A stretch of DNA of 24,251 nt, from positions 1 through 24,251 of IMG/VR virus record IMGVR_UViG_3300037262_000111. The stretch is one strand, 5' to 3'. This stretch comes from a virus. The position numbers were made by a program, and so were the translations under genes. Of this stretch, positions 8,283-20,239 are shown piece after piece. The notes under the pieces were generated by a model. The model searched no databases. It was not told the DNA's origin and saw only the letters and a program-made list of their open reading frames with translations. Within the stretch, counting starts at the first letter, position 1; each line of letters starts with the position of its first letter.

Positions 8283-8810
8283 ATGATGATGATTTTGGGC
8301 ATGTTCGTTTTTAGTCTTTCTACCCTCGCCTACCACGATTTGCAGCGCCAGACTGACTGGAAGCATCCCAGCAATGCCATTGTGGGTGGGCGGGATATGA
8401 GTCAGTTCACCGGCAAGGGGGAAGATACGATCACGTTAAATGGCTGGATTGCGCCGCGTCTGGCAGGCATTGTGTATTCACTGGATGCTTTGCGCTTCAT
8501 GGCCGACTCTGGCAAAGCGTGGTTCCTGATTCAAGGTACAGGACGTATCTACGGCACTTTTGTGATCACCAGCATGACGGAGAGTAAAACCGAGTTGGCT
8601 AATAACGGGAATCCCGAGCGCATCAGCTTTTCGTTGGTATTAAAGCGGGTGGATCAGTCGGTACCAGACATGCTGAACAACCTGGGCGATTTAAGCAGCA
8701 TCAAAAGCATGATGAGTCTGGATGGCATGGCCAATATGGCCAACGATTTACTGGGCCAAGGTAAGACCATTTATGACAACGTGGGAAACAGCATCGGGAC
8801 GTTGCGATGA
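8283..8810 (+). CDS. U: Tail protein gpU (tube terminator/adaptor)
   Basis: This 175-residue protein belongs to the P2 gpU family (about 159 residues in P2). Characteristic segments are FSLSTLAYHDLQRQTDWKHP, then GEDTITLNGWIAPRLAGI and FLIQGTGRIYGTFVITSMTE. The frame is open upstream inside T, but GAAAGG at 8268-8273 and the run of three ATG codons at 8283-8291 set the start just after the T stop; any of the three could be used. The C-terminal extension (about residues 140-175) is Met- and Gly-rich. The gene overlaps D by ATGA. Confidence 0.92.
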   Translation: MMMILGMFVFSLSTLAYHDLQRQTDWKHPSNAIVGGRDMSQFTGKGEDTITLNGWIAPRLAGIVYSLDALRFMADSGKAWFLIQGTGRIYGTFVITSMTESKTELANNGNPERISFSLVLKRVDQSVPDMLNNLGDLSSIKSMMSLDGMANMANDLLGQGKTIYDNVGNSIGTLR

Positions 8811-10102
8811 AAGAGTACGATAGCCCCGCCTTTCAGGTTGTCGTGGATGACGAGGATATAACCAATAAAATCGCGCCACGCCTGATCAGTTTTACGTTGA
8901 ACGAATGCGGCGGTGACGAAAGCGACCAGCTCGACCTTGCCTTATCGGATGCGGACGGCATGCTGGCGATCCCACCTCGGGGTGCAGCAATCAACGTTCA
9001 AATCGGTTGGAAAAAGTCCGGACTGGTCGACAAGGGCGTTTTTACGGTTGATGAGGTAGAGCATAGTGGCACGCCGGATCAAATCACCTTACGCGCTCGC
9101 ACGGCCAATTTCACGGCCAGTTTCAGACAAGTGCAGACCGAGACGTTTCATGACACGACGCTGGGTGGCATCATCGAACTCATCGCGTTTAAAAATGAGC
9201 TGCGACCAGGTATATCTGAATCGCTCAGGAACGTCGTTGTGCCACACATCGATCAGACACGCGAATCCGATGGCGCATTCTTGCGTCGCCTGGGAAAGAA
9301 GTATGACGCCACGGCGACAGTCAAGAACGACACTCTACTGTTTATTCCAATTAACGCCTGCGAAACGGCGTCGGGCAAGCCGTTACCAGTCATCATAATC
9401 ACCCGCGATTTGGGAGACTGTCACCGGTATCAAAGCGCCGAGCGGGACAGTTATTCCGGCGTCAGGGTGTTTTGGCATGACACAAAGTCAACGATGCGCC
9501 GCAGTGTGGTGGCTGGCAGTGCCGGCAACACCAAGAACCTGCGTACCACCTACTCCACTGAAGCGGATGCCAGGCAGGCCGCCGTCGCGGAATGGCAGCG
9601 GATTCAGCGCGGACTGGCTACGTTTGAATTGGCGCTGGCGGAAGGAAATCCGCAATTGATGCCCAAGTCACCTGTCAAGGTCAGCGGGTTTAAACCGGCT
9701 ATCGATGCGGTGGAATGGCAGGCCACCAGGGTGTGCCATTCAATCACTAAAAACGGTTTTACAAGCCGGATAGAAATGGAGACAAAAACCGAAGAGGCCG
9801 AAGCCGAACGTGAGCCACAGTCCGATCCAGATATTGGCATTACCGGCGTCTTCGCCAAGTGGCGCGATAAGGTCAGAAATAAAACCGGTACGGCCATCGC
9901 GCCCACAACTGGCACCAGACAAAATCGCAAGCCCGTCGCGAGTGCCAGCAATAATCCGAAGATACTTTCTGCCAGCAACGGACATGAAGATGTCTACGAC
10001 AGTAAGGCTTCAGCGCAGCGCGCTGCCGATGTCGCTTGGGCGAATATTGTGGAGACTCGGGAAATTATTGCGGAAAATAATAATACTTCCGCACTTGACT
10101 AA
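8807..10102 (+). CDS. D: Baseplate hub / late control protein gpD
   Basis: This 431-residue protein matches the P2 late control gene D family (about 387 residues), structurally a gp27-like hub below the tube. The N-terminal half shows the family order: a beta domain ending in AAINVQIGWKKSGLVDKGVF, then LRARTANFTASFRQVQTETF and ESDGAFLRRLGKKYDATATV. The conserved middle part ends around residue 325 (GFTSRIEMETK). The last 100 residues are Glu-, Lys- and Asn-rich and are an extension beyond the conserved body. The final codons contain the -35 element of the toxin-antitoxin promoter. Despite the name, the role is structural. Confidence 0.94.
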   Translation: MKEYDSPAFQVVVDDEDITNKIAPRLISFTLNECGGDESDQLDLALSDADGMLAIPPRGAAINVQIGWKKSGLVDKGVFTVDEVEHSGTPDQITLRARTANFTASFRQVQTETFHDTTLGGIIELIAFKNELRPGISESLRNVVVPHIDQTRESDGAFLRRLGKKYDATATVKNDTLLFIPINACETASGKPLPVIIITRDLGDCHRYQSAERDSYSGVRVFWHDTKSTMRRSVVAGSAGNTKNLRTTYSTEADARQAAVAEWQRIQRGLATFELALAEGNPQLMPKSPVKVSGFKPAIDAVEWQATRVCHSITKNGFTSRIEMETKTEEAEAEREPQSDPDIGITGVFAKWRDKVRNKTGTAIAPTTGTRQNRKPVASASNNPKILSASNGHEDVYDSKASAQRAADVAWANIVETREIIAENNNTSALD

Positions 10103-10122
10103 ATATATCAATTTGATATAAT
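10095..10122 (+). promoter_or_regulatory. higBA promoter with palindromic operator
   Basis: TTGACT (10095-10100) and TATAAT (10117-10122) are separated by 16 bases, a strong sigma70-like promoter. A perfect inverted repeat, TATATCAA-T-TTGATATA, occupies 10104-10120, so it covers the spacer and most of the -10. This is the layout expected for autorepression by an antitoxin with a helix-turn-helix. The -35 overlaps the stop codon of gene D. The predicted transcription start is about 10129, one base before the higB ATG. Confidence 0.8.
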
Positions 10123-10129
10123 CGCACGC

Positions 10130-10432
10130 ATGCACATCATCTCACTTAAAATGCTTCGCGAATTCTGGCAAAAACACCCCGAAGCTGAAAAATTATTACG
10201 CGAATGGCACACCATTGTTGAGCATGCGGAATTCAAGGACTTTAACCATGTTAGACAGTTCTTCAATTCGGCCGACTATGTACCGCCTTACACAATCTTT
10301 GACATTGGCGGGAACAATTATCGGGTGGTGGTGCTCGTTCGATATAAATTCAAAAAAGTCTATGTCCAAAAAGTGATGACGCACCGTGAATATGATGAGT
10401 GGAACAAACTTTACAGGAAAGGCAAGGTGTAA
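10130..10432 (+). CDS. higB: HigB-type mRNA interferase toxin
   Basis: This 100-residue protein matches the HigB toxin family of the RelE/HigB fold, ribosome-dependent endoribonucleases. The recognisable pattern is MHIISLKMLREFWQKHPEAE at the start, AEFKDFNHVRQFF at residues 33-45, then NYRVVVLVRYKFKKVYV and the C-terminal MTHREYDEWN. The core basic residues (R64, R70) and H85 are present. Length is close to E. coli HigB (about 104 residues). No ribosome-binding site can lie upstream, because the predicted transcript begins at about the ATG. It is followed after two bases by higA, in the toxin-first order usual for hig systems. The toxin looks intact. Confidence 0.93.
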   Translation: MHIISLKMLREFWQKHPEAEKLLREWHTIVEHAEFKDFNHVRQFFNSADYVPPYTIFDIGGNNYRVVVLVRYKFKKVYVQKVMTHREYDEWNKLYRKGKV

Positions 10433-10434
10433 TT

Positions 10435-10863
10435 ATGCAAGCAATACAACCCAAATTTAACATCAAAGCGATTCAATCGTCCTGGCAGAAATTGGACGCT
10501 ATCGCGCACCTGCGGCCAATTCACAACGAAGAAGAGTATGACCGCATGGTGATGTTGATGAACTTTTTATTGGATGCTGCGGGAGAGGATGAAGACCATC
10601 CACTGTCCGGTTTGCTGGATTTGGTTGGCGATCTGGTTTCAAGGTATGAACAGGAACATTTCGTTATTGACCGGGCGGAGCCAAAAGACGCGCTGCGCTT
10701 TTTGATGGAGGCGCGAGGATTAAAGCAGGAAGAATTAGCCGGGATTATTCATCAGAGCAACCTGTCGGCCATTCTTGCCGGTAAGCGGAAAATTAGTGCG
10801 GCTCTGGCGGGGAAATTGGGTAAATTTTTTGGTATTAGTCCGGCGGTGTTTGTACCGAACTAA
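10435..10863 (+). CDS. higA: HigA antitoxin with C-terminal helix-turn-helix
   Basis: This 142-residue protein resembles E. coli-type HigA (about 138 residues). The N-terminal 80 residues (including EEYDRMVMLMNFLLDAAGEDEDHP) are the toxin-binding part, and residues 90-135 form an XRE-type helix-turn-helix (LRFLMEARGLKQEELAG, then SNLSAILAGKRKISAALAGKLG). The ATG at 10435 is chosen over an in-frame upstream ATG inside higB because AAGGTG at 10424-10429 is well placed. HigA should bind HigB and, alone or as a complex, repress the palindrome before higB. It ends 21 bases from the convergent kinase gene, with no clear terminator between. Confidence 0.93.
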   Translation: MQAIQPKFNIKAIQSSWQKLDAIAHLRPIHNEEEYDRMVMLMNFLLDAAGEDEDHPLSGLLDLVGDLVSRYEQEHFVIDRAEPKDALRFLMEARGLKQEELAGIIHQSNLSAILAGKRKISAALAGKLGKFFGISPAVFVPN

Positions 10864-10884: not shown

Positions 10885-13203
10885 CTATTTCATAACGCGA
10901 TTCGATGGCCCAACCAGATCGCTTAACTTCTGAGCCAATTGATCTTTGCGGACCGGCTTTTGCAAGAAACTAGAAAACAGCTTGCGCTGATCCGGAGAGA
11001 TGTTTGTCGGCTCAGTGGCGCTTATCCAAATTATTGGTGTTTTCTTATTTGGACCATCCGTGTTTTGCACTTTAGTCGCAACAGCAAGTCCGTCCATGTC
11101 CGGCATATATATGTCAAGCAAAATGGCATCGTAGTGTTGCCGACTCAATTGGTCAACGGCATCCATCCCAGACGCAGCGACATCACATTCATAATCAAGC
11201 GCCTGAACTACAGACTGAAGCACAATGCGTACATCCTCAGTATCATCCACAAGTAAGATTCGATGGTTCGGTGCACTTTCAACTGAATGAATTGACTGAT
11301 CATTGACTCTGTCGGCACTCTCGACAGGGATGTGGACATCAATTATTGTCCCTTTACCCAGTTCCGAAGTTATCTTGATCGTTCCATTCAATGCATCAAG
11401 CGATTTTTTTACAATGGTTAGGCCCATGCCTACCCCTTCATGGCGACGTGTGCTGCTTTGATCGATTTGAACGAATGGTTCGAAGATTAACGGGAAGTCC
11501 TCCGCGCTTATGCCAATTCCGGAATCCTCAACTCGAATTTGTAACGCACAACTGGTACCGGTCGCATAACGCAATTGAATATTTACAATCCCTTGATCAG
11601 TATATTTAATGGCGTTTGAAATTAAATTATTGACTATCTGTTGAATTCTAAATACATCAGACCGCACGTTGAAGTTGGAAGATTCGATATTTGAAGTTAG
11701 CTTGAGTCCTTTATTTTCCGCCACTTCTTTGTAATCGTTTGCAATTTGATTGATAGCTTCAGATGCATCGAATTCACCCACGCGTAATTTCATTTTTCCC
11801 GACTCTAGTGAAGCGTAGTCAGTGAGATCTTTCATTTGCTTTTCCAGATACGCCGCCGCCAGATTCATTCGATTTATTATCTCGATTTCTTTGGGTTGCT
11901 TCAATTTTTCAGACAGCAAATCAATGGAGGAAGTAATGGTCTGAAGTGGCGTTTTCAATTCATGACTTACCATGCCGAGAAAGGTGTTTTTTGCGACCGC
12001 TGTTTCTTTCTCAATGATTTTCAATCGGTACGCCAAGGCAAGCGAAAAAATTATTGCCTCCCATACTGCGCCAATTTGAATCGCGTAGACAGTAAACCAA
12101 GTGGAGGGCAATAAACCTATTTGACGCAGGCAAAATACAATGATCATTAAGATGAACACGATCCATCCAGCGCTGTATACCTTAGCTGGCGCGTAACCTT
12201 GCTTTGACCTTACCAATCCCCCTAACAGCAAAAACGGAACCATGAACAAGGCGAGAAAATTCAATGCAAAATAAGGATTGAACGGCAGAACGACCGCGCA
12301 TATTCCACCTATGACAAACAACCACTGACAAGCTATAAGACAGCAATCTAACCAGCGAATGGATTGATTTAGAGAGAGGAATTTACGACCAAAAAGAATC
12401 ATCCCATGATTCAAAGCATAACCAAAAACAGCAAATAGTTTTTCATAAAATGTGTTCAGTTGGAACAGGAGGGGAACGAAACCATTCATGTACACAAACA
12501 GCCCAATAAAGCAGCCCAAGTAGTATACGTAATACGCATACAGACGACTACGTAAATAGATGCAGATCGCCAAGTTGTAAAACCACATCGCAGCCATCCC
12601 GCCAAAGAATAGCCCGAGCGCCATTTGTGCATTGTGAACATTTTCCAAAATACCTTTTAAGCTCGACCACGACAAATCAATATTTAGCGCATGTCCTTGC
12701 GGAGCGTATCGCACGTAGTAGACCGCCGTATTTGTTTCGGGAGTGGGAATCTTGAATAGGTAGTTATGGATATTAAAGGCGCGCTTGCTGGCAGGTTCTT
12801 CTTCAGACAGCTCTGATTTTGAATAGCCTGACTTGACTGGATAAAACAAACTTAGATTGCCAACGTGCTCATAATTCTGAGTCAGAAACCAATACGGGTC
12901 TGCATAGTCATGAAAATCAATTGAGAATCGAATCCACAAAACCTTTTTTTTGTATCCGTACCCCAAATTGTCTTTCAGGAGAGGCTTAAATTGTCCTGCA
13001 TTTCCGCTCGCAACTTGATCAATGGAGAATGTGCCATCCTCATCATCCAGATATTCAAGTTGCATCGCCAACGCCTGTTTTTGATCACCAATCGGTGTAA
13101 AAATTGGTAGTTCGCTTACTGCCTTGCAAAAGCTACTCTGCCAAAACAAAAAAAATGACAATAAGACTAAAGAGTTGCAAAATATTTTTTTTAATTTAGG
13201 CAT
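10885..13203 (-). CDS. Hybrid sensor histidine kinase with 7TMR-DISM sensor and receiver
   Basis: This 772-residue membrane kinase has an N-terminal signal peptide or anchor (NSLVLLSFFLFWQSSFC) and a periplasmic 7TMR-DISM extracellular-2 type domain at about residues 30-180. Seven hydrophobic segments follow at about 195-395, then a kinase core: H-box SHELKTPLQ with H414, N-box NNLISNAIKY, G1 DSGIGIS and G2 GVGMGL. A C-terminal receiver has acidic pair D653/D654, phospho-acceptor D697 and Lys749, so it appears catalytically complete. A TTG at 13212 is an alternative start; the ATG at 13203 is used, although neither has a clear ribosome-binding site. 7TMR-DISM sensors often bind carbohydrates, but this ligand is unknown. 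No HPt domain is seen. It is the last gene of a three-gene operon. Confidence 0.9.
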   Translation of the reverse strand: MPKLKKIFCNSLVLLSFFLFWQSSFCKAVSELPIFTPIGDQKQALAMQLEYLDDEDGTFSIDQVASGNAGQFKPLLKDNLGYGYKKKVLWIRFSIDFHDYADPYWFLTQNYEHVGNLSLFYPVKSGYSKSELSEEEPASKRAFNIHNYLFKIPTPETNTAVYYVRYAPQGHALNIDLSWSSLKGILENVHNAQMALGLFFGGMAAMWFYNLAICIYLRSRLYAYYVYYLGCFIGLFVYMNGFVPLLFQLNTFYEKLFAVFGYALNHGMILFGRKFLSLNQSIRWLDCCLIACQWLFVIGGICAVVLPFNPYFALNFLALFMVPFLLLGGLVRSKQGYAPAKVYSAGWIVFILMIIVFCLRQIGLLPSTWFTVYAIQIGAVWEAIIFSLALAYRLKIIEKETAVAKNTFLGMVSHELKTPLQTITSSIDLLSEKLKQPKEIEIINRMNLAAAYLEKQMKDLTDYASLESGKMKLRVGEFDASEAINQIANDYKEVAENKGLKLTSNIESSNFNVRSDVFRIQQIVNNLISNAIKYTDQGIVNIQLRYATGTSCALQIRVEDSGIGISAEDFPLIFEPFVQIDQSSTRRHEGVGMGLTIVKKSLDALNGTIKITSELGKGTIIDVHIPVESADRVNDQSIHSVESAPNHRILLVDDTEDVRIVLQSVVQALDYECDVAASGMDAVDQLSRQHYDAILLDIYMPDMDGLAVATKVQNTDGPNKKTPIIWISATEPTNISPDQRKLFSSFLQKPVRKDQLAQKLSDLVGPSNRVMK

Positions 13204-13218
13204 GGTAGTCAAGTTTGA

Positions 13219-13653
13219 TCAATCGATTTTTGACCAGAGGAATACGCCAACTAGCTGGGCTCCTGCGACGGGCATTGGTTCGGATTTAAGCTGGAGGATT
13301 GCGCCATTTTCCAAGAACTCAAAATACCTGCGTTGTAGAGAATTTGACTGATTAGGTATTAAACTTCCTTGCAAGTGATGAGTCACAAATTTTTTTTCTT
13401 CGTTCACTTCGTAAGTCCCGTAATACGCTACGTAAGTTTCAAATGCTGCTCTGATTTCGCTATCAGTTCCGGCTTGAAATCCGTCTTGAGCAAATCTTGG
13501 ACGCTCACTGTGATGCAGTTGAACTGACATCATGCCATTCTGTGAGTAGCTAATAAGTCCTTTGGGTGTATCGCCAAACGGTCTGCTGACACCACCGTCC
13601 TCGGCCTTCAGTTCAAATGATTTTAGTTTCCAATTTCCGATGAATTTCTTCAA
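13219..13653 (-). CDS. Lipocalin-like domain protein
   Basis: This 144-residue protein resembles the Lipocalin_5 (lipocalin-like) family. It shows the family order of motifs: FIGNWKLKSFEL, then PKGLISYSQNGMMSVQL, then AAFETYVAYYGTYEV and KFVTHHLQGSLIPNQ. The fold is expected to be a small beta-barrel that holds a hydrophobic ligand, but the family has no settled biochemical role. The frame is open to a TTG at 13695 that overlaps the upstream stop. The TTG at 13653 is preferred because AAAGGA lies 8 bases before it and it leads directly into the domain, whereas the upstream extension is a basic run. There is no signal peptide. It lies between regulator and kinase genes, so a role in signal sensing or modulation is possible but unproven. 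Confidence 0.82.
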   Translation of the reverse strand: MKKFIGNWKLKSFELKAEDGGVSRPFGDTPKGLISYSQNGMMSVQLHHSERPRFAQDGFQAGTDSEIRAAFETYVAYYGTYEVNEEKKFVTHHLQGSLIPNQSNSLQRRYFEFLENGAILQLKSEPMPVAGAQLVGVFLWSKID

Positions 13654-13691
13654 TTTAATTTTCCTTTGGTTTCGACGTTTGGCTTTAACGT

Positions 13692-14537
13692 TCAATTCAA
13701 ATCAAGCATTTTCATTACCTCTGCGGCGAGTATGGGAAGTCGAACTGGCTTTTCCTGACAAATGACATCAAAGCGCCGCATGAGACCAGCGACCTCCGTG
13801 TCATCAATTTTTCCAGTTAACATCTGCCCAGTCAAAAGTATTATTGGCGCTTCTTGTTGCCCTCCTTTTCGTATGAGATTTAAAAGCACCTCCGAAGTCT
13901 CACTCCCAACAAACCAATCCAAAATATAACCATCAAAGCCATCAGCTTGAATTGCTGCAACGGCAGCGGGAATATCGTAAAAAGCTTTTGATTTAAATCC
14001 AATGCCAATTAAATAGTCGCGAATGTTGTCGGCAGTTCCCGGATCATCATCAACCACTGCGATTGTCAGATTGTGAATTCGATCAGGATAAATCTCTATT
14101 TTTTCAACATTAAACAGTTCAAACTCGACTGGTGCATCCTTTGATTCGATTACATGCCATTCACCATAACGCTCGAACGCAACAAAGCTCGTTGGTTTGT
14201 TTTTCAGCACACCGATCTGGACGGTGCAAGGAAAATCTCTCCCTTTGATATTCAGCATCGCTTCATGTACAGAATTGGTTGATGCTTGCGCCGAGCCTTC
14301 CACCACTAGTGAATCCAAAAGTGTTCCAGGCCTCTCGTTGAAATGATTTGCCACAAGGATAATCTGAGAAACAGTCCAAGGACTGTCGCCGTTCATTTTC
14401 CGATGGGCTGCGGAAAAACCTAAGTTCAAAATGCGGCCAAGTTCGCTAGTTTGTTTGCGCTCCCCAATACCATGCCGCTCCATCAACTCACGAACCGTTT
14501 TAGCAATAGATTCGGATTCTATTTTCTCAATTGACAT
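13692..14537 (-). CDS. Response regulator with N-terminal BetR-like HTH and C-terminal receiver
   Basis: This 281-residue protein has a helix-turn-helix at about residues 10-75 (VRELMERHGIGERKQTSELG, then LGFSAAHRKMNGDSPWTVSQI), resembling the BetR domain. A middle beta-rich part at about 90-150 follows, then a receiver domain at about 157-280. Receiver residues are complete: D163-D165, phospho-acceptor D207 in YILDW, T236 and K263 in QEKPV. The order is reversed from most response regulators, where the receiver is N-terminal. It starts at ATG 14537 with no strong ribosome-binding site. It is first in the operon with the lipocalin-like and kinase genes, so the kinase is the probable phosphodonor. 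Targets are unknown. Confidence 0.88.
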   Translation of the reverse strand: MSIEKIESESIAKTVRELMERHGIGERKQTSELGRILNLGFSAAHRKMNGDSPWTVSQIILVANHFNERPGTLLDSLVVEGSAQASTNSVHEAMLNIKGRDFPCTVQIGVLKNKPTSFVAFERYGEWHVIESKDAPVEFELFNVEKIEIYPDRIHNLTIAVVDDDPGTADNIRDYLIGIGFKSKAFYDIPAAVAAIQADGFDGYILDWFVGSETSEVLLNLIRKGGQQEAPIILLTGQMLTGKIDDTEVAGLMRRFDVICQEKPVRLPILAAEVMKMLDLN

Positions 14538-14550
14538 TTAATTTTTCTAT

Positions 14551-14592
14551 AAGTTATTGGTTTATTGACAATGATCCAAACCTTTAAAGGTT
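14551..14592 (-). promoter_or_regulatory. Candidate promoter and palindromic operator of the regulator/kinase operon
   Basis: On the - strand, TTGGAT (14574-14579) and TAACTT (14551-14556) are spaced by 17 bases. Directly upstream of the -35 is the perfect 14-bp palindrome AACCTTTAAAGGTT (14579-14592). The gene starts 14 bases after the -10. The promoter boxes are only moderate matches. The palindrome could be a binding site for the helix-turn-helix regulator encoded by the first gene, but this is inference. Confidence 0.38.
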
Positions 14593-14978
14593 GTGATATT
14601 ACTAAAAATATAGATACGTGAACATCTAAAATTATGTTCAATTGCCACCATTAAATTCATTTCTTACGGGCGACGAATAAATTGGTTCACTAAATACTAT
14701 CCTTCCTTCAAATTCAAAATTTGATCCATCATTAGAAAATTCACCCTACACAAGTTGCCTGATAAGACAAATTCTAACAAATATAAATAATAACATCGCT
14801 TACCAAGCAACTATAAGATGGAACAAATTAATATAATGTCTTTACAATTGAATATTTAGATTCTAAAATTGCTTATCAAGACAGCATTTAATTGTTGTAG
14901 GTGACGACGCCGACCAGCAGTAAAGTCGCCAAATCGATCCAGTTCCAAGTACATGTTGTTCACAAGTGAAAGGAAACC
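14593..14978. other. AT-rich intergenic region between divergent genes
   Basis: No gene is visible in these 386 bases between the - strand regulator operon and the + strand ogr gene. Base composition is strongly AT-rich up to about 14880 and then becomes mixed. The region holds a good + strand promoter at 14841-14869 and a roughly 100-base leader before ogr. TTCAC-AA-GTGAA at 14959-14970 is a short inverted repeat next to the ogr ribosome-binding site. Confidence 0.6.
14841..14869 (+). promoter_or_regulatory. Sigma70-like promoter for ogr
   Basis: TTTACA (14841-14846) and TAAAAT (14864-14869) are separated by 17 bases, each matching the consensus at five of six positions. The expected transcript begins at about 14876 and has a leader of about 100 bases before the ATG at 14979. 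It would express ogr independently of the tail operon, which the inverted regulator/kinase operon separates from ogr. Confidence 0.6.
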
Positions 14979-15236
14979 ATGAGCGTCATAAGCATTCCAT
15001 GCCCTCACTGCAAAAGTCGTGTGCTAGCGAAAAAAAGCCGCACAATGAATTGTCTGATGAAAGAAATCACCTACGTGTGCCAGAACCCCGATTGTGGTCA
15101 CGTGTTTGTGGCTTCCTTAGAAGTATTGCGCACGCTATCACTGTCTTCCATGCCGAATCCTCAAATTCGTATCAATATTTCTCAACATGTACGCCAAGGC
15201 GCTGCCAATCAGCTGGCCTTTTCCCAAAACGATTAG
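14979..15236 (+). CDS. ogr: Ogr/Delta-type zinc-finger late transcription activator
   Basis: This 85-residue protein carries the Ogr/Delta zinc-binding pattern: C8-x2-C11-x22-C34-x4-C39 (CPHCKSR, then CQNPDCGHVF). The spacing is identical to P2 Ogr (about 72 residues). These proteins bind upstream of late promoters at TGT-N12-ACA sites and recruit RNA polymerase through its alpha subunit, switching on head, tail and lysis genes. AGGA at 14971-14974 precedes the ATG. In P2, ogr directly follows D. Here the toxin-antitoxin and regulator/kinase genes lie between them, but ogr keeps the same orientation. It might serve this prophage or, as in P4, act for a satellite. Confidence 0.93.
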   Translation: MSVISIPCPHCKSRVLAKKSRTMNCLMKEITYVCQNPDCGHVFVASLEVLRTLSLSSMPNPQIRINISQHVRQGAANQLAFSQND

Positions 15237-15843: not shown

Positions 15844-18627
15844 ATGAATTGCCCACGTTATAAAGTGAATCCGATGGCATCGATCCAACAATTAAAAAAA
15901 AGAATCAACCTGCACGATCTGGCGGCACGGCTCGGCATGGTGCGCGGTAAGGGCGACAAAGCCAATTACCACAGTCCGCACCATCGAGATAAATCCCCTT
16001 CGATTGCTATAGACACAGATGGTAAAAGCTTCCGTGATTACAGCGCAGACGGAGTACCTTACGCCACAGGTTCAATTATCGATTTGCTGATGTATGTCAA
16101 AGGACTCCCCGATGTCGGTGATGCCATGCGATGGTTACATGAAGAGTATGCGATTCCATTTGACCTACCTTCCGAGGTGACACCGCCGCCCGAAAAATCA
16201 CGAGCTGAATTCATTGCTGATCGCTGCCTGATTGATCCGTCGCCGGTGCGCCCCTACCTCACTGGCCGCGGCATTAGTGAAAGCGTAATTGATGCAGCCA
16301 TTAGGAACAGAACGTTAGGCTTTAATAATTGGAAATCCAGCAAAGTGGAAGAAGGCCAAGTCGGTTACGGCGGCGATGCGGCCGCATTCATTGTGCGTCA
16401 CCCGCTCACTTCTGCAGTATTGGCCGTTGACCTTCGATACTTCAATCCCGGTTTGAATGGCGACGTTAAAACACAGACACAAGGTGACAAAGATGGTGTC
16501 ATCTGGACGTCCAACCCTGCACGCATAAAGAGCGCCAAACAAGTCTACATTGTTGAGTCAGCCATTAACTGCTTGTCGATTGAAACGGCTGATCCGTTTG
16601 CTTGTGCAATTGCATTGCGCGGACTGGGTAATGTTGATTTGGTCGATTGGTCATTCTTGCGAGGCAAACAAATTATTCTTTGTCTGGATAACGACATGCC
16701 GTTTCCTGAACAACATCGTCTGGCCGGTCAACGTCCAGGACCGGAAGCAGCATGGCGTTTAGTCGAACGACTAACCTCATTGAATATTGGTGTGATGTTG
16801 GTGGATCAATCGGAATGGTATACCAAAGATGGTGCGCCATTAAATGATGTGAATGATGTATTGGTGGCGCGCGACGCCAGCCAATTAAAGGTATGGCTGT
16901 CCAAGCTGGAACCGTGGCTAATTGCCGGATTGCGAGGCGAAGAAGGGCAACAAGGGCGCAAACGCATTTATCTTCCAGCGCATGATTTTGCTCAGTATTG
17001 GAAATTCCGCGTCCGGCCAGACTTCACGACTTACATCGGCAAGGTCGATGAACAATCGTGTGGCGATGGCGAGGTAGTCAAAACGCCCATCTATCAAGAT
17101 TTGGCCGGCTTCCGTGTCGCAGCGCTCAGTCGGGTTTCGATTGCCAGCGCGTCGTCCACCATGACCGGCGATCCGGATCAACAACCGGCTGTCTTTTTCG
17201 CTGTTTCTGTTCAGACCCCGCGTCATGGCGCCACACTTCAACGCCGCGTCATGCAGGATGAACAGTTGCACAATTTGGATGGCTGGAAGCGATTTGGCCC
17301 CGTGTGGAATGCAGGCGCATTCTCTCGCATGATCAATATTCTGGAGCGTACCGCCGATCTGGGCGCGCGCCAGGCTGCTAACTTCGTCGGCTTAGCATGG
17401 CGTGATGGCAAACTCATCGTCAACGAAGGAGCAGACTGCTACTTTACGGAACCAGAGAAACAATGCCCGTACCATAATCTGACCTTCCCAACCGGCACCG
17501 CGCGCAACGCCCGAGAAGTTATTCACGCATTTCAATCCACCTTTAAAAAGAATGCTGCGTTGCTGCCTTTGATTTGGTCGCTGGGAGGCCATTTAAAGGC
17601 GCTCCTGGGCTTCTGGCCTCACATGATGATTCAGGCCGACAAGGGTAGCGGCAAATCAACGCTGATCAAACGTTTGGAGCGCGCAATCGGCATGACGATG
17701 TTTTCGGGACAATCGCTCAATACCGAGTTCCGTTTGCTCACGTCGATTAGTCACACATCGCATCCAGTTGGCTGGGAAGAGTTATCAGCGCGTCGGCAAG
17801 ACGTGATTGATAAAGCTGTCGGTATGCTGCAGGAAAATTATCAATACACGATTACGCGCCGTGGTTCCGAGATGACTGAATATCTGCTTTCCGCTCCGGT
17901 ACTGCTGGCCGGTGAAGATGTGCCAGTACGTTCCCTGCTCGGTAAGATTATCCGCACCGATCTGACGGGCAAGAAGGGGCCGCTCATCCCGGACGACCTG
18001 CCGCGTTTTCCTGTCAAGGAATGGCTGACCTATCTCTCCGGATTATCAAAAAAAGAAGTTCTTAAACGGTATGCTGAAATTCAGACAGTGTGTCTGCATG
18101 CCTCACGCGCCAGCGGCGAAGATGAAGGCGCTTTGCGCATGTCAGGTAACTATGCCGCGATATATATGGCGTGGCTCTATCTGTGCGAATTTGCTGGCAT
18201 CGATACCGGCCAGGGCAACGTTGATCACGATTTGTTTGAGGAGATGAACCGGCACATCAGTGAAACCAGCGCCGACCGGGAACCATGGGTCTGGATTATG
18301 GAAATCGCCTTATCCGAAATCGCCGCAAATCGCTTTGCGTATCCATACTCATGGCAGCAAGAACCAACCCCTGCACTCCTGATACGCACCAGCCACATCA
18401 TGGATCACATTTCAACGACACCTTCGCTTCGTGAGAAATGGAACGGTCTGCCGGTAAAGAGCGATCGCGTGTTTAAAAAGCAAATGATCAACGCGGGAGT
18501 GATACCCGCAGACCAAAGCTGCGAACGCACCATCAACATGCAGCGCGTCTCGAATTTGCAAATTATTCCGATTGAAAAGCTAAGGCAGTTTGGACTGGAT
18601 GCCACACCTACGGCGCGTCTTCAATGA
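15844..18627 (+). CDS. Replication protein: Toprim primase and helicase-like ATPase
   Basis: This 927-residue protein likely starts replication of the element. The N-terminal part (residues 15-105, with LKKRINLHDLAARLGM, YHSPHHRDKSPS and GSIIDLLMYVKGL) has the CHC2 primase pattern, but the usual zinc Cys residues are absent. A Toprim domain follows: E238 in YIVESAINCLS and D282/D284 in ILCLDNDMPF. The C-terminal half is a helicase-type ATPase with Walker A ADKGSGKST (K604), the acidic pair E645/E646 in VGWEELS, and a later LLAGEDVPV. A second ATG at 15874 is also possible, and neither start has a strong ribosome-binding site. It could act like P4 alpha, though the domain order is not the same. 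Confidence 0.85.
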   Translation: MNCPRYKVNPMASIQQLKKRINLHDLAARLGMVRGKGDKANYHSPHHRDKSPSIAIDTDGKSFRDYSADGVPYATGSIIDLLMYVKGLPDVGDAMRWLHEEYAIPFDLPSEVTPPPEKSRAEFIADRCLIDPSPVRPYLTGRGISESVIDAAIRNRTLGFNNWKSSKVEEGQVGYGGDAAAFIVRHPLTSAVLAVDLRYFNPGLNGDVKTQTQGDKDGVIWTSNPARIKSAKQVYIVESAINCLSIETADPFACAIALRGLGNVDLVDWSFLRGKQIILCLDNDMPFPEQHRLAGQRPGPEAAWRLVERLTSLNIGVMLVDQSEWYTKDGAPLNDVNDVLVARDASQLKVWLSKLEPWLIAGLRGEEGQQGRKRIYLPAHDFAQYWKFRVRPDFTTYIGKVDEQSCGDGEVVKTPIYQDLAGFRVAALSRVSIASASSTMTGDPDQQPAVFFAVSVQTPRHGATLQRRVMQDEQLHNLDGWKRFGPVWNAGAFSRMINILERTADLGARQAANFVGLAWRDGKLIVNEGADCYFTEPEKQCPYHNLTFPTGTARNAREVIHAFQSTFKKNAALLPLIWSLGGHLKALLGFWPHMMIQADKGSGKSTLIKRLERAIGMTMFSGQSLNTEFRLLTSISHTSHPVGWEELSARRQDVIDKAVGMLQENYQYTITRRGSEMTEYLLSAPVLLAGEDVPVRSLLGKIIRTDLTGKKGPLIPDDLPRFPVKEWLTYLSGLSKKEVLKRYAEIQTVCLHASRASGEDEGALRMSGNYAAIYMAWLYLCEFAGIDTGQGNVDHDLFEEMNRHISETSADREPWVWIMEIALSEIAANRFAYPYSWQQEPTPALLIRTSHIMDHISTTPSLREKWNGLPVKSDRVFKKQMINAGVIPADQSCERTINMQRVSNLQIIPIEKLRQFGLDATPTARLQ

Positions 18628-18699: not shown

Positions 18700-18906
18700 A
18701 TGGACAAAAATCTCACATCGCACAACAAACTGATCGGATCGGCGGAGGTGATGCAACGGATTGGGATCAGCTACACCACTCTCTGGCGACTTGTGAAAGC
18801 ACAGAAAATCCCAACACCCAGAAAAGTTGGCAGCCTTAACCGCTGGCTGGAGGCTGACATTGAGCGTTATATTTCTCAACCAACCACGCCGACCACCATG
18901 CCATGA
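18700..18906 (+). CDS. alpA: AlpA-family DNA-binding regulator
   Basis: This 68-residue protein matches the AlpA/prophage regulatory family, with a MerR-like winged helix: LIGSAEVMQRIGISYTTLWR, then KIPTPRKVGSLNRWLEADIE. AlpA-type proteins control integrase expression or excision in cryptic prophages, and the related Vis of P4 has excisionase-like roles. AAAGGA precedes the ATG. Its 3' end overlaps the convergent integrase gene by 71 bases, so transcripts of the two would be complementary there. The nearby int promoter region holds an inverted repeat that is a candidate site for it. Confidence 0.88.
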   Translation: MDKNLTSHNKLIGSAEVMQRIGISYTTLWRLVKAQKIPTPRKVGSLNRWLEADIERYISQPTTPTTMP

Positions 18907-19990
18907 GTTCGCGTCGTTGCGGCAAATACTCTGCCCTGTTGTATGCCGCCCGAACTGCATCTTTTTCTTTATGTGCAAGCTGTCGCTCAATTACATCGCC
19001 ACTAAAAGGCGAGTACTGATTGAGCACAGAACTTGCCAGAGCACGAAACCCATGCACCGTCATTCTTCCGCGATAGCCCAGTCCGTAGAGAGCAAAAAGG
19101 AATGTGTTTTCACTGACTGGATGACCTGGCCTAAGAGGAGATTCAACGACCAGCCCGCTCCCACCAGAAAGGGCCTTTAATTCCTCCAAAATTGCCAATA
19201 CCGGCTGACTGAGCGGCACAACATGCGGCACGCGCATTTTCATCCGTTCGGCCGGAATCACCCATACCTGGTCGTCCAGTACCAGTTCATCCCACCGCAT
19301 ATTTCGCAATTCGTTAAACCGGACAAATGTGTGGGCGATCAGAAGCAATCCCAGCCTCGTGACAGGTTCTTGATAAGTCATGATTGCGCTTAGCAGTTGC
19401 CCCACTTCCTCGTGTGGAATCGATGGCATTGGTTTGGATTTTTTCTTCGGTAATACCCGTGACAATTTGGCTGCGCCATGCGACTCAATCACACCGATGT
19501 CCAACGCGTAGTTAAAAATCATATCTATGCGACCGCCGACGCGAGATGCTGTCTCCGGAATATGCGACAGTTTTTGTACCACGTCTACCAACAGCGTTCG
19601 TGGTATCGAGTCAATCGGAAGTTGGCCGATATAGGGGAACACATGCTCGCGCAAGGTGTTACAGACTTGAATCTGATGTTTAGGATTAGACAGGGTGGGC
19701 AGCTTAATTTCGAGCCATTCGTCCGCCACGGTTTGAAACGTCGGCATGCTGGACTTTCCAGTTTCAGATTTGCGCAACACATTCAACTTGCGGGCTTCGG
19801 CCAAGCTGATATCGGGATATCGCCCGTACGTGATAGTTTGTTGCTTGCCTGCGGCTGAATAATTGGCGCGCCAGGTTCGATTTCCAGTGGGAGCTATATG
19901 GAGATACAGTCCAGCCCCATCGGTTAGCTTATACGGCTTGTCCTGCGGCTTGGCGGCTTCAACGGTTTTTACGGTCAGTGGCATAGTCAT
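18836..19990 (-). CDS. int: Tyrosine integrase of P4 type
   Basis: This 384-residue site-specific recombinase has the N-terminal DUF4102 arm-binding domain (residues 1-85, with LTDGAGLYLHIAPTGNRTWR and TITYGRYPDISLAEAR). The catalytic part includes R224, K251, H313 and R316 in VHGFRALA, H340 in RQLAHKE and the nucleophile Y350 in AAYNRAEY. The set appears complete. The gene starts about 160 bp from the 3' end of tRNA-Ser, the usual target arrangement of this family. An ATG two codons inside the reading frame is an alternative start. The 3' end overlaps alpA. Proteins of this type often integrate islands and satellites as well as phages. Confidence 0.95.
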   Translation of the reverse strand: MTMPLTVKTVEAAKPQDKPYKLTDGAGLYLHIAPTGNRTWRANYSAAGKQQTITYGRYPDISLAEARKLNVLRKSETGKSSMPTFQTVADEWLEIKLPTLSNPKHQIQVCNTLREHVFPYIGQLPIDSIPRTLLVDVVQKLSHIPETASRVGGRIDMIFNYALDIGVIESHGAAKLSRVLPKKKSKPMPSIPHEEVGQLLSAIMTYQEPVTRLGLLLIAHTFVRFNELRNMRWDELVLDDQVWVIPAERMKMRVPHVVPLSQPVLAILEELKALSGGSGLVVESPLRPGHPVSENTFLFALYGLGYRGRMTVHGFRALASSVLNQYSPFSGDVIERQLAHKEKDAVRAAYNRAEYLPQRRELMAWWSAWLVEKYNAQCQPPASG

Positions 19991-20149: not shown

Positions 20150-20190
20150 TGGCGGAGAGGGAGGGATTCGAACCCTCGGATGGGTCGCCC
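20150..20190. other. Probable prophage attachment site (tRNA-Ser 3' end)
   Basis: P4-type integrases mostly recombine in the 3' half of tRNA genes, and the int gene ends its control region next to this tRNA end. The core would include part of the T arm and acceptor stem. No second copy of this sequence is visible in the window, which fits a left att site beyond base 1. The exact core cannot be set from one end only. Confidence 0.4.
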
Positions 20191-20239
20191 CATCGCTTGA
20201 TTTCGAGTCAAGTACATTCGACCACTCTGCCACCTCTCC
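20150..20239 (-). tRNA. tRNA-Ser(CGA)
   Basis: The - strand folds into a class II tRNA of 90 bases with encoded CCA. The acceptor stem is GGAGAGG/CCTCTCC with discriminator G. The anticodon arm reads CTTGACTCGAAATCAAG with anticodon CGA. There is a long variable arm (CGATGGGGCGACCCATCG) and a T arm GAGGGTTCGAATCCCTC. The promoter lies upstream at 20298-20326. The integrase at its 3' side suggests that it is the attachment site. Confidence 0.97.

Follow-up and report, generated by a model that had tools for sequence, protein, structure and literature searches.

A putative signal-responsive two-component module in the repressor slot of a P2-like prophage

Our analysis of the IMG/VR virus record IMGVR_UViG_3300037262_000111 (24,251 nucleotides, the whole stretch analysed, here called the window) showed a three-gene operon between the late control gene D and the late-gene activator gene ogr of a P2-like prophage. 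The operon encodes a response regulator, a lipocalin-like protein and a hybrid sensor histidine kinase. We lean towards the reading that these three genes form a signal-responsive control module that has taken the place of the usual XRE lysogeny repressor in this AP3/KS5-like P2 prophage, because the regulator takes over the slot of that repressor and because the pair of regulator and kinase recurs beside transfer operons on plasmids. A broader proposal is made only tentatively. The lysis-lysogeny switch of this prophage may be a two-component system that reads an extracellular signal directly, in which the repressor would be a response regulator open to phosphorylation and controlled by a transmembrane 7TMR-DISM kinase that the phage itself encodes, and the same regulator family may control plasmid conjugation, as a signal-gated transfer switch shared by unrelated mobile elements. 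The parts are all known, namely the two-component system, the BetR-receiver regulator, the 7TMR-DISM kinase, the Lipocalin_5 protein and the P2-like prophage. The proper class of the system is a two-component system of the BetR-receiver kind, located in the repressor slot of a P2-like prophage.

The operon, its control region and the genes that border the interval are as follows (HTH, helix-turn-helix).

8807..10102, plus strand: late control gene D, which bounds the interval on the left (phrog_52 tail protein, 8.7e-131)
10885..13212, minus strand: hybrid sensor histidine kinase (7TMR-DISMED2, 7TM, HisKA, HATPase_c, receiver)
13219..13653, minus strand: lipocalin-like protein (Pfam Lipocalin_5, 6.5e-33; longest open reading frame (ORF) from 13695)
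13692..14537, minus strand: response regulator, 281 aa (BetR HTH N-terminal, middle strand region, receiver C-terminal)
14538..14978, unstranded: divergent AT-rich control region, candidate operator/promoter (GC 0.31)
14979..15236, plus strand: ogr late-gene activator (Pfam Ogr_Delta, 7e-16; phrog_603, 4.5e-22)

The three genes lie in one minus-strand operon (10885-14537), in the order regulator, lipocalin-like gene, kinase. The stop codon of the regulator overlaps the first possible start of the lipocalin-like gene, and 6 nt separate the latter from the kinase. The first-pass annotation, made from the sequence alone, had placed such a sensory operon between D and ogr; the ORFs were located as it described and their Pfam families were confirmed, except that the operon does not extend to 14592, since the regulator starts at 14537. 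The HTH-first, receiver-last order of the regulator, there called reversed, was also found, but it is a known Pfam architecture (BetR). In the same way, the operon is indeed AT-richer (GC 0.426, with 0.311 in the 441-nt gap to ogr, vs 0.51-0.54 in the flanks). This is weak evidence of foreign origin, because a low GC content of the D-ogr interval is usual in the group, the mean difference from the flanks in related prophages being -4.8 points.

The relatives used to define the repressor slot were 80 prophages from IMG/VR found with the window primase (58-83% identity), 66 of which hold both D and ogr. With a profile built from one recurring gene cluster of these prophages, 63 of the 66 proved to carry an XRE-type HTH gene in the D-ogr interval, on the minus strand; the count was 43 of 46 for dissimilar intervals only. 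This gene starts 282-773 nt before ogr (median 551, 63 relatives). The window regulator is on the same strand and starts 441 nt before ogr. In the relatives, cargo adjoins D and the repressor gene adjoins ogr. PHROGs class the XRE protein with phage transcriptional regulators and repressors, the KS5 record labels the gene of the slot as a repressor, and AP3 shows the same layout, with a promoter annotated between the slot gene and the rightward genes. None of the window ORFs matches the XRE profile, and no HTH match except HigA was found among the other small ORFs scanned in the window. The regulator itself has the repressor-like HTH, the minus-strand orientation and the divergence from the ogr operon that are expected of a lysogeny repressor. 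Repressor types do exchange in this slot, because one relative (L194) carries a CI/S24 repressor there instead of the XRE protein. Membership of the regulator in the XRE/CI repressor family of the group was ruled out, since the profile did not match it; it may work in a similar way.

The three operon genes are encoded in none of the 80 related prophages (tblastn), so they were rejected as standard D-ogr cargo of the phage group. Variable cargo of this interval in the relatives includes a glycosyltransferase, a membrane protein and a LuxR/MFS/TenI set. The last is found in L117 (5668-9585), where the stretch from D to the primase holds two copies of ogr and an AlpA-like gene besides the genes for the LuxR-type regulator, the MFS transporter and the TenI-like protein. 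In 19 of 63 relatives (L128, L133, L144, L182 and others), the XRE repressor gene is followed immediately, in the same orientation, by a gene with a single hydrophobic stretch, and the corresponding gene is annotated as a membrane protein in KS5 and AP3. Judging by these sequences, phages of this group may often pair the XRE repressor with a membrane protein. In L118 (5396-6971) and L119, the C-terminus of the XRE repressor and the N-terminus of a nearby 224-aa protein have in common a tag of the type HG.VGQN..G, which suggests a possible interaction of the two proteins there. As a general feature the tag HGxVGQNxxG was rejected; it is present in the repressor of two near-identical loci only.

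In the regulator, the BetR domain (Pfam, 1.6e-31) is followed by Response_reg at 2.3e-5 (24.9 bits, under the Pfam cut-off of 30.2 bits), and the modelled C-terminal domain matched solved receiver domains in Foldseek. The AlphaFold model is good for the HTH and the receiver and poor for the middle region. The acidic pair D163-D165, the acceptor D207, T236 and K263 are all present and conserved across relatives, as a two-component regulator requires. The BetR half matches the phage transcriptional-repressor family phrog_4583 at 2.3e-6. BetR-receiver architecture with full-length similarity is found elsewhere, with near full-length tblastn matches in 463 plasmid records.

The kinase matches 7TMR-DISMED2 (2e-20), 7TMR-DISM_7TM (4e-33), HisKA (1e-9), HATPase_c (5e-27) and Response_reg (2e-19) in Pfam. 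HisKA and HATPase_c are above their cut-offs, and the H-box SHELKTP and the N, G1 and G2 ATP-binding motifs are kept, the conserved motifs being SHELKTP, NNLISNAIKY, DSGIGI, GVGMGL, ILLVDD, ILLDIYMPD and LQKP. The earlier claim that all phosphotransfer residues are present in both proteins was thus borne out. The 7TMR-DISMED2 sensor domain is predicted to be extracellular. For the kinase core, the closest matches are BetR-linked kinases of plasmids (44.8%). No histidine phosphotransfer (HPt) domain was found among the scanned ORFs.

For the lipocalin-like protein, the better start is TTG at 13653, 8 nt after AAAGGA. This protein has no hydrophobic stretch and is therefore probably cytoplasmic, as far as its sequence indicates. 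A single-sequence structure model reached a predicted local distance difference test (pLDDT) score of 41 and was not used, and no solved relative was found by sequence. PADLOC gave no meaningful match to anti-phage defence for the three genes. A known defence system was rejected, as the kinase had only weak generic kinase/receiver matches to candidate models and the regulator and the lipocalin-like protein had none.

The regulator matches 472 plasmid records with up to 41% identity, mostly of Klebsiella, E. coli, Salmonella and Serratia, and 388 of them are typed as conjugative. We read the neighbours of the regulator in ten plasmid loci (L003, L004, L005, L006, L008, L199, L200, L201, L202 and L262, the last a contig which has VirB-like genes and appears to belong to a plasmid). 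In 10/10 the regulator has beside it a hybrid kinase that is a homologue of the window kinase. The regulator gene points away from type IV secretion or tra genes in 8/10, L004 and L202 being the exceptions. Enterobacterial plasmids carry on one strand, in this order, the regulator, a hypothetical protein or glycosyltransferase, an Oxidored_molyb protein and the kinase; the order of regulator, small gene(s) and kinase on one strand is that of the window. One locus, on a Robbsia plasmid, has the sensor type of the window, with a 7TMR-DISM kinase, a thioesterase gene, a BetR-receiver gene and type IV secretion system (T4SS) genes.

On chromosomes, the pair is common in Burkholderiaceae; within the P. 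xenovorans family, 142 of 299 genomes were found to hold the regulator. The kinase adjoins it in 79 of 80 loci, usually convergent, with an Oxidored_molyb gene where checked, and this pairing would speak indirectly for phosphotransfer between the kinase and the regulator of the window. Beyond this family the regulator is rare, being present among 369 genomes of the class in the centre genome itself only; BetR overall was above the cut-off in 11 of 399 genomes of the order. A tree of the regulators sets the copies on Burkholderiaceae chromosomes apart at a support of 97/99 and puts the window regulator with the mobile copies. Only this chromosomal/mobile split is supported; deeper placement is weak, with several long branches.

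A lipocalin gene beside the regulator and kinase core was seen nowhere else among these loci, where the third gene is usually Oxidored_molyb and once a thioesterase. The core is therefore a stable pair in which the sensor and the third gene vary. The earlier annotation had named, as a finding that would speak against it, the genes occurring mostly outside prophages. This holds for the core, which is present in the chromosomes and plasmid records above and in 0/80 prophages, but not for the lipocalin gene together with the core. We conclude that a module of known type was recruited into a phage, and that it is neither a phage invention nor standard D-ogr cargo.

Other BetR-receiver genes were noted. 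Two chromosomal copies (L007:6001-6855 and L113) have no kinase detected alongside, and in that of L007 the acceptor Asp is replaced by Glu (TEWL), possibly an always-on form. Two BetR-receiver genes lie about 54 kb apart on opposite strands in G1065 (C1:61440-62276 and 115515-116354), and likewise in G1105 and G1114. In L264 (6370-7972) a chromosomal BetR-receiver gene is divergent from an apparent Flp/Tad pilin gene, again beside a surface appendage. In G1182, G1312, G1287, G1230, G1297 and others, copies are broken up over different frames or interrupted by in-frame stops and look as though they were decaying.

Based on these results, the module could work as follows. The 7TMR-DISM kinase would sense a small ligand outside the inner membrane and would phosphorylate or dephosphorylate D207 of the regulator, by which the element would shift between dormancy and transfer. 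In the simplest case, phosphate would pass straight from the His of the kinase to the Asp of the regulator and the receiver of the kinase would act as a modulator, because no HPt domain was found and because the sister kinase of Robbsia has no receiver. The BetR-receiver protein would bind the 441-nt region (14538-14978) and govern two operons, the leftward one that encodes it and the rightward one of ogr and replication, by repression, we infer, rather than activation. A plus-strand promoter-like site (14841-14869) in this region points to ogr. Upstream regions of the chromosomal and plasmid relatives of the regulator yielded no shared operator that could be transferred to the window. The lipocalin-like protein holds the place of the Oxidored_molyb protein or thioesterase in the sister modules and is probably a small-ligand binder or modulator; its role as ligand carrier or modulator would be a guess.

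The remaining features of the window are as follows.

10130..10863, plus strand: HigB/HigA-type toxin-antitoxin pair (Pfam HigB_toxin, 1e-25; HTH_3, 1e-7)
15844..18627, plus strand: primase (phrog_5629, 1453 bits; 58-83% identity to the 80 prophage loci)
18836..19990, minus strand: integrase (Pfam Phage_integrase)
20150-20239, adjoining the integrase: tRNA-Ser(CGA) (ARAGORN)

The record starts inside the tail genes, so the left end of the prophage is missing. The window opens with the tail half of a P2-like prophage, that is, a W-like gene from position 50 followed by FII, E, tape measure, U and D. To the right of the interval are ogr, which is the first gene of a rightward operon and divergent from the regulator, the primase, and the integrase beside the tRNA gene, which is the likely attachment site; host DNA with a kup gene follows. 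P2-type matches were obtained for GPW_gp25, Phage_tube, Phage_TAC_7, Phage_P2_GpU, D and Ogr_Delta. W, FII, E, U, D and ogr, the P2-type gene order and the integrase at a tRNA gene place the prophage among P2-like phages (Peduoviridae), and it is apparently intact. The D protein has 431 aa, with a C-terminal extension of about 80 residues compared with the relatives (about 330-350 aa).

The D-ogr interval holds two separate sets, the rightward HigB/HigA pair and the leftward three-gene operon. The position of the operon between D and ogr, as given in the first-pass annotation, was correct, but HigB/HigA also lies between D and the operon. This pair occupies the cargo position beside D, partly matches PD-Lambda-2 A/B in PADLOC, and was judged to be outside the sensory set. 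It lies just after D, with a promoter-like site at 10095-10122 (11/12).

Several points weigh against the replacement of the repressor by this module. It was found in a single phage instance, with no close relative of the regulator, the lipocalin-like protein or the kinase in viral contigs and phage records, the host genome was not found, the best match of the Kup protein reaching 64%, and the sampled relatives are mostly Burkholderia phages. Imperfect repeats in 14538-14978 were not above dinucleotide shuffles (39 vs 38.2 +/- 1.0). The slot is without any repressor in L117, the closest relative (83% primase identity), and in L143, which is short, so a slot without a repressor need not be filled by another regulator. 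In addition, a regulator transcribed divergently may activate as well as repress. Cargo, variable among the relatives, is carried in the D-ogr interval too, so the operon could be a host-directed module beside a lost repressor. In this case it would be lysogenic-conversion cargo that senses an outside signal and regulates host genes, the repressor being lost or outside the window, and its place between D and ogr would only reflect where these phages keep additional genes. The missing left end of the phage would agree with that, as would the finding that regulator and kinase form an ordinary locus of Burkholderiaceae chromosomes. We consider it unlikely, however, as the relatives keep cargo on the D side and the repressor on the ogr side, and in the window HigBA lies towards D and the regulator towards ogr, within the strand and distance range of the repressor. 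Mobile copies elsewhere adjoin the transfer operon of the element itself. The sensory set with a possible link to ogr that the first annotation saw is supported, and the set is complete for phosphotransfer, but a reading as simple sensory cargo is not supported, as the regulator holds the repressor position.

Two other explanations have less in their favour. The regulator might, instead of being the repressor itself, activate the ogr operon or serve it as an anti-repressor, adding a signal input over an undetected repressor such as HigA or a product encoded beyond the window. Activation of transcription is common among phosphorylated response regulators, and the divergence from ogr and the plus-strand promoter-like site suit such a role; it is rather improbable in our view, since the phage part of the window has no second repressor-like gene except the HigA antitoxin, and the BetR half resembles a phage repressor family. 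The operon might also have entered a decaying prophage by chance and be without a selected function, which would account for the single instance, the lack of an identified host and the GC content below that of the flanks. This is highly improbable, because the three module genes, D, ogr, the primase and the integrase are all open and full length, and every phosphotransfer residue is kept.

The closest systems to the proposed repressor-replacing module are the BetR-receiver, hybrid kinase and Oxidored_molyb loci on conjugative plasmids of Klebsiella, E. coli, Serratia, Paraburkholderia, Pandoraea and Janthinobacterium and on Burkholderiaceae chromosomes. They are similar in regulator architecture (24-44% identity), in the homologous kinase core (31-45%) and in the small accessory gene beside the kinase, and on plasmids they are divergent from the transfer operon. 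They differ in having another sensor domain, Oxidored_molyb instead of Lipocalin_5, and a plasmid or chromosomal instead of a phage location. The locus on plasmid p2 of Robbsia andropogonis (L008) has a 7TMR-DISM sensor 38% identical to the sensor half of the window kinase, an adjacent BetR-receiver gene from which T4SS genes diverge, and a small accessory gene next to the kinase. Unlike in the window, the accessory is a 4HBT thioesterase, the kinase has no receiver, kinase and regulator are convergent, and the locus is on a plasmid. Burkholderia phages KS5 and AP3 (Peduoviridae) carry the XRE repressor in the corresponding slot, matching the window regulator in strand and in its spacing from D and ogr, but as a single-domain protein with no receiver and no kinase, and with Arc-like and DNA-binding genes before ogr. 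Pseudomonas LadS/RetS have a 7TMR-DISMED2 and 7TM sensor in a hybrid kinase (28.6% identity over the sensor), whereas they are chromosomal Gac-network regulators with no BetR partner.

Chemical signals set lysis or lysogeny in temperate phages through phage quorum receptors (VP882 VqmA, phage LuxR proteins) and arbitrium (PMC7790227). These receptors are cytoplasmic (PMC7790227), and none is a transmembrane kinase with a receiver-domain regulator. In the open-access literature, with abstracts screened, we found no description of phage-encoded two-component lysogeny control or of BetR systems, and no paper on plasmid tra control by a BetR-receiver/kinase pair. Within the literature searched, the combination of these known parts appears new.

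The plasmid set of BetR-receiver, kinase and small accessory gene is a candidate conjugation control system in its own right, and the question is testable in common laboratory plasmids, because the regulator and kinase pair adjoins the transfer operons of conjugative plasmids. If our reading of the prophage is true, a transmembrane sensor kinase wired to a response regulator in the repressor slot would be a route other than the cytoplasmic phage receptors, and a virus dormant in its host genome may time its waking by an outside signal.

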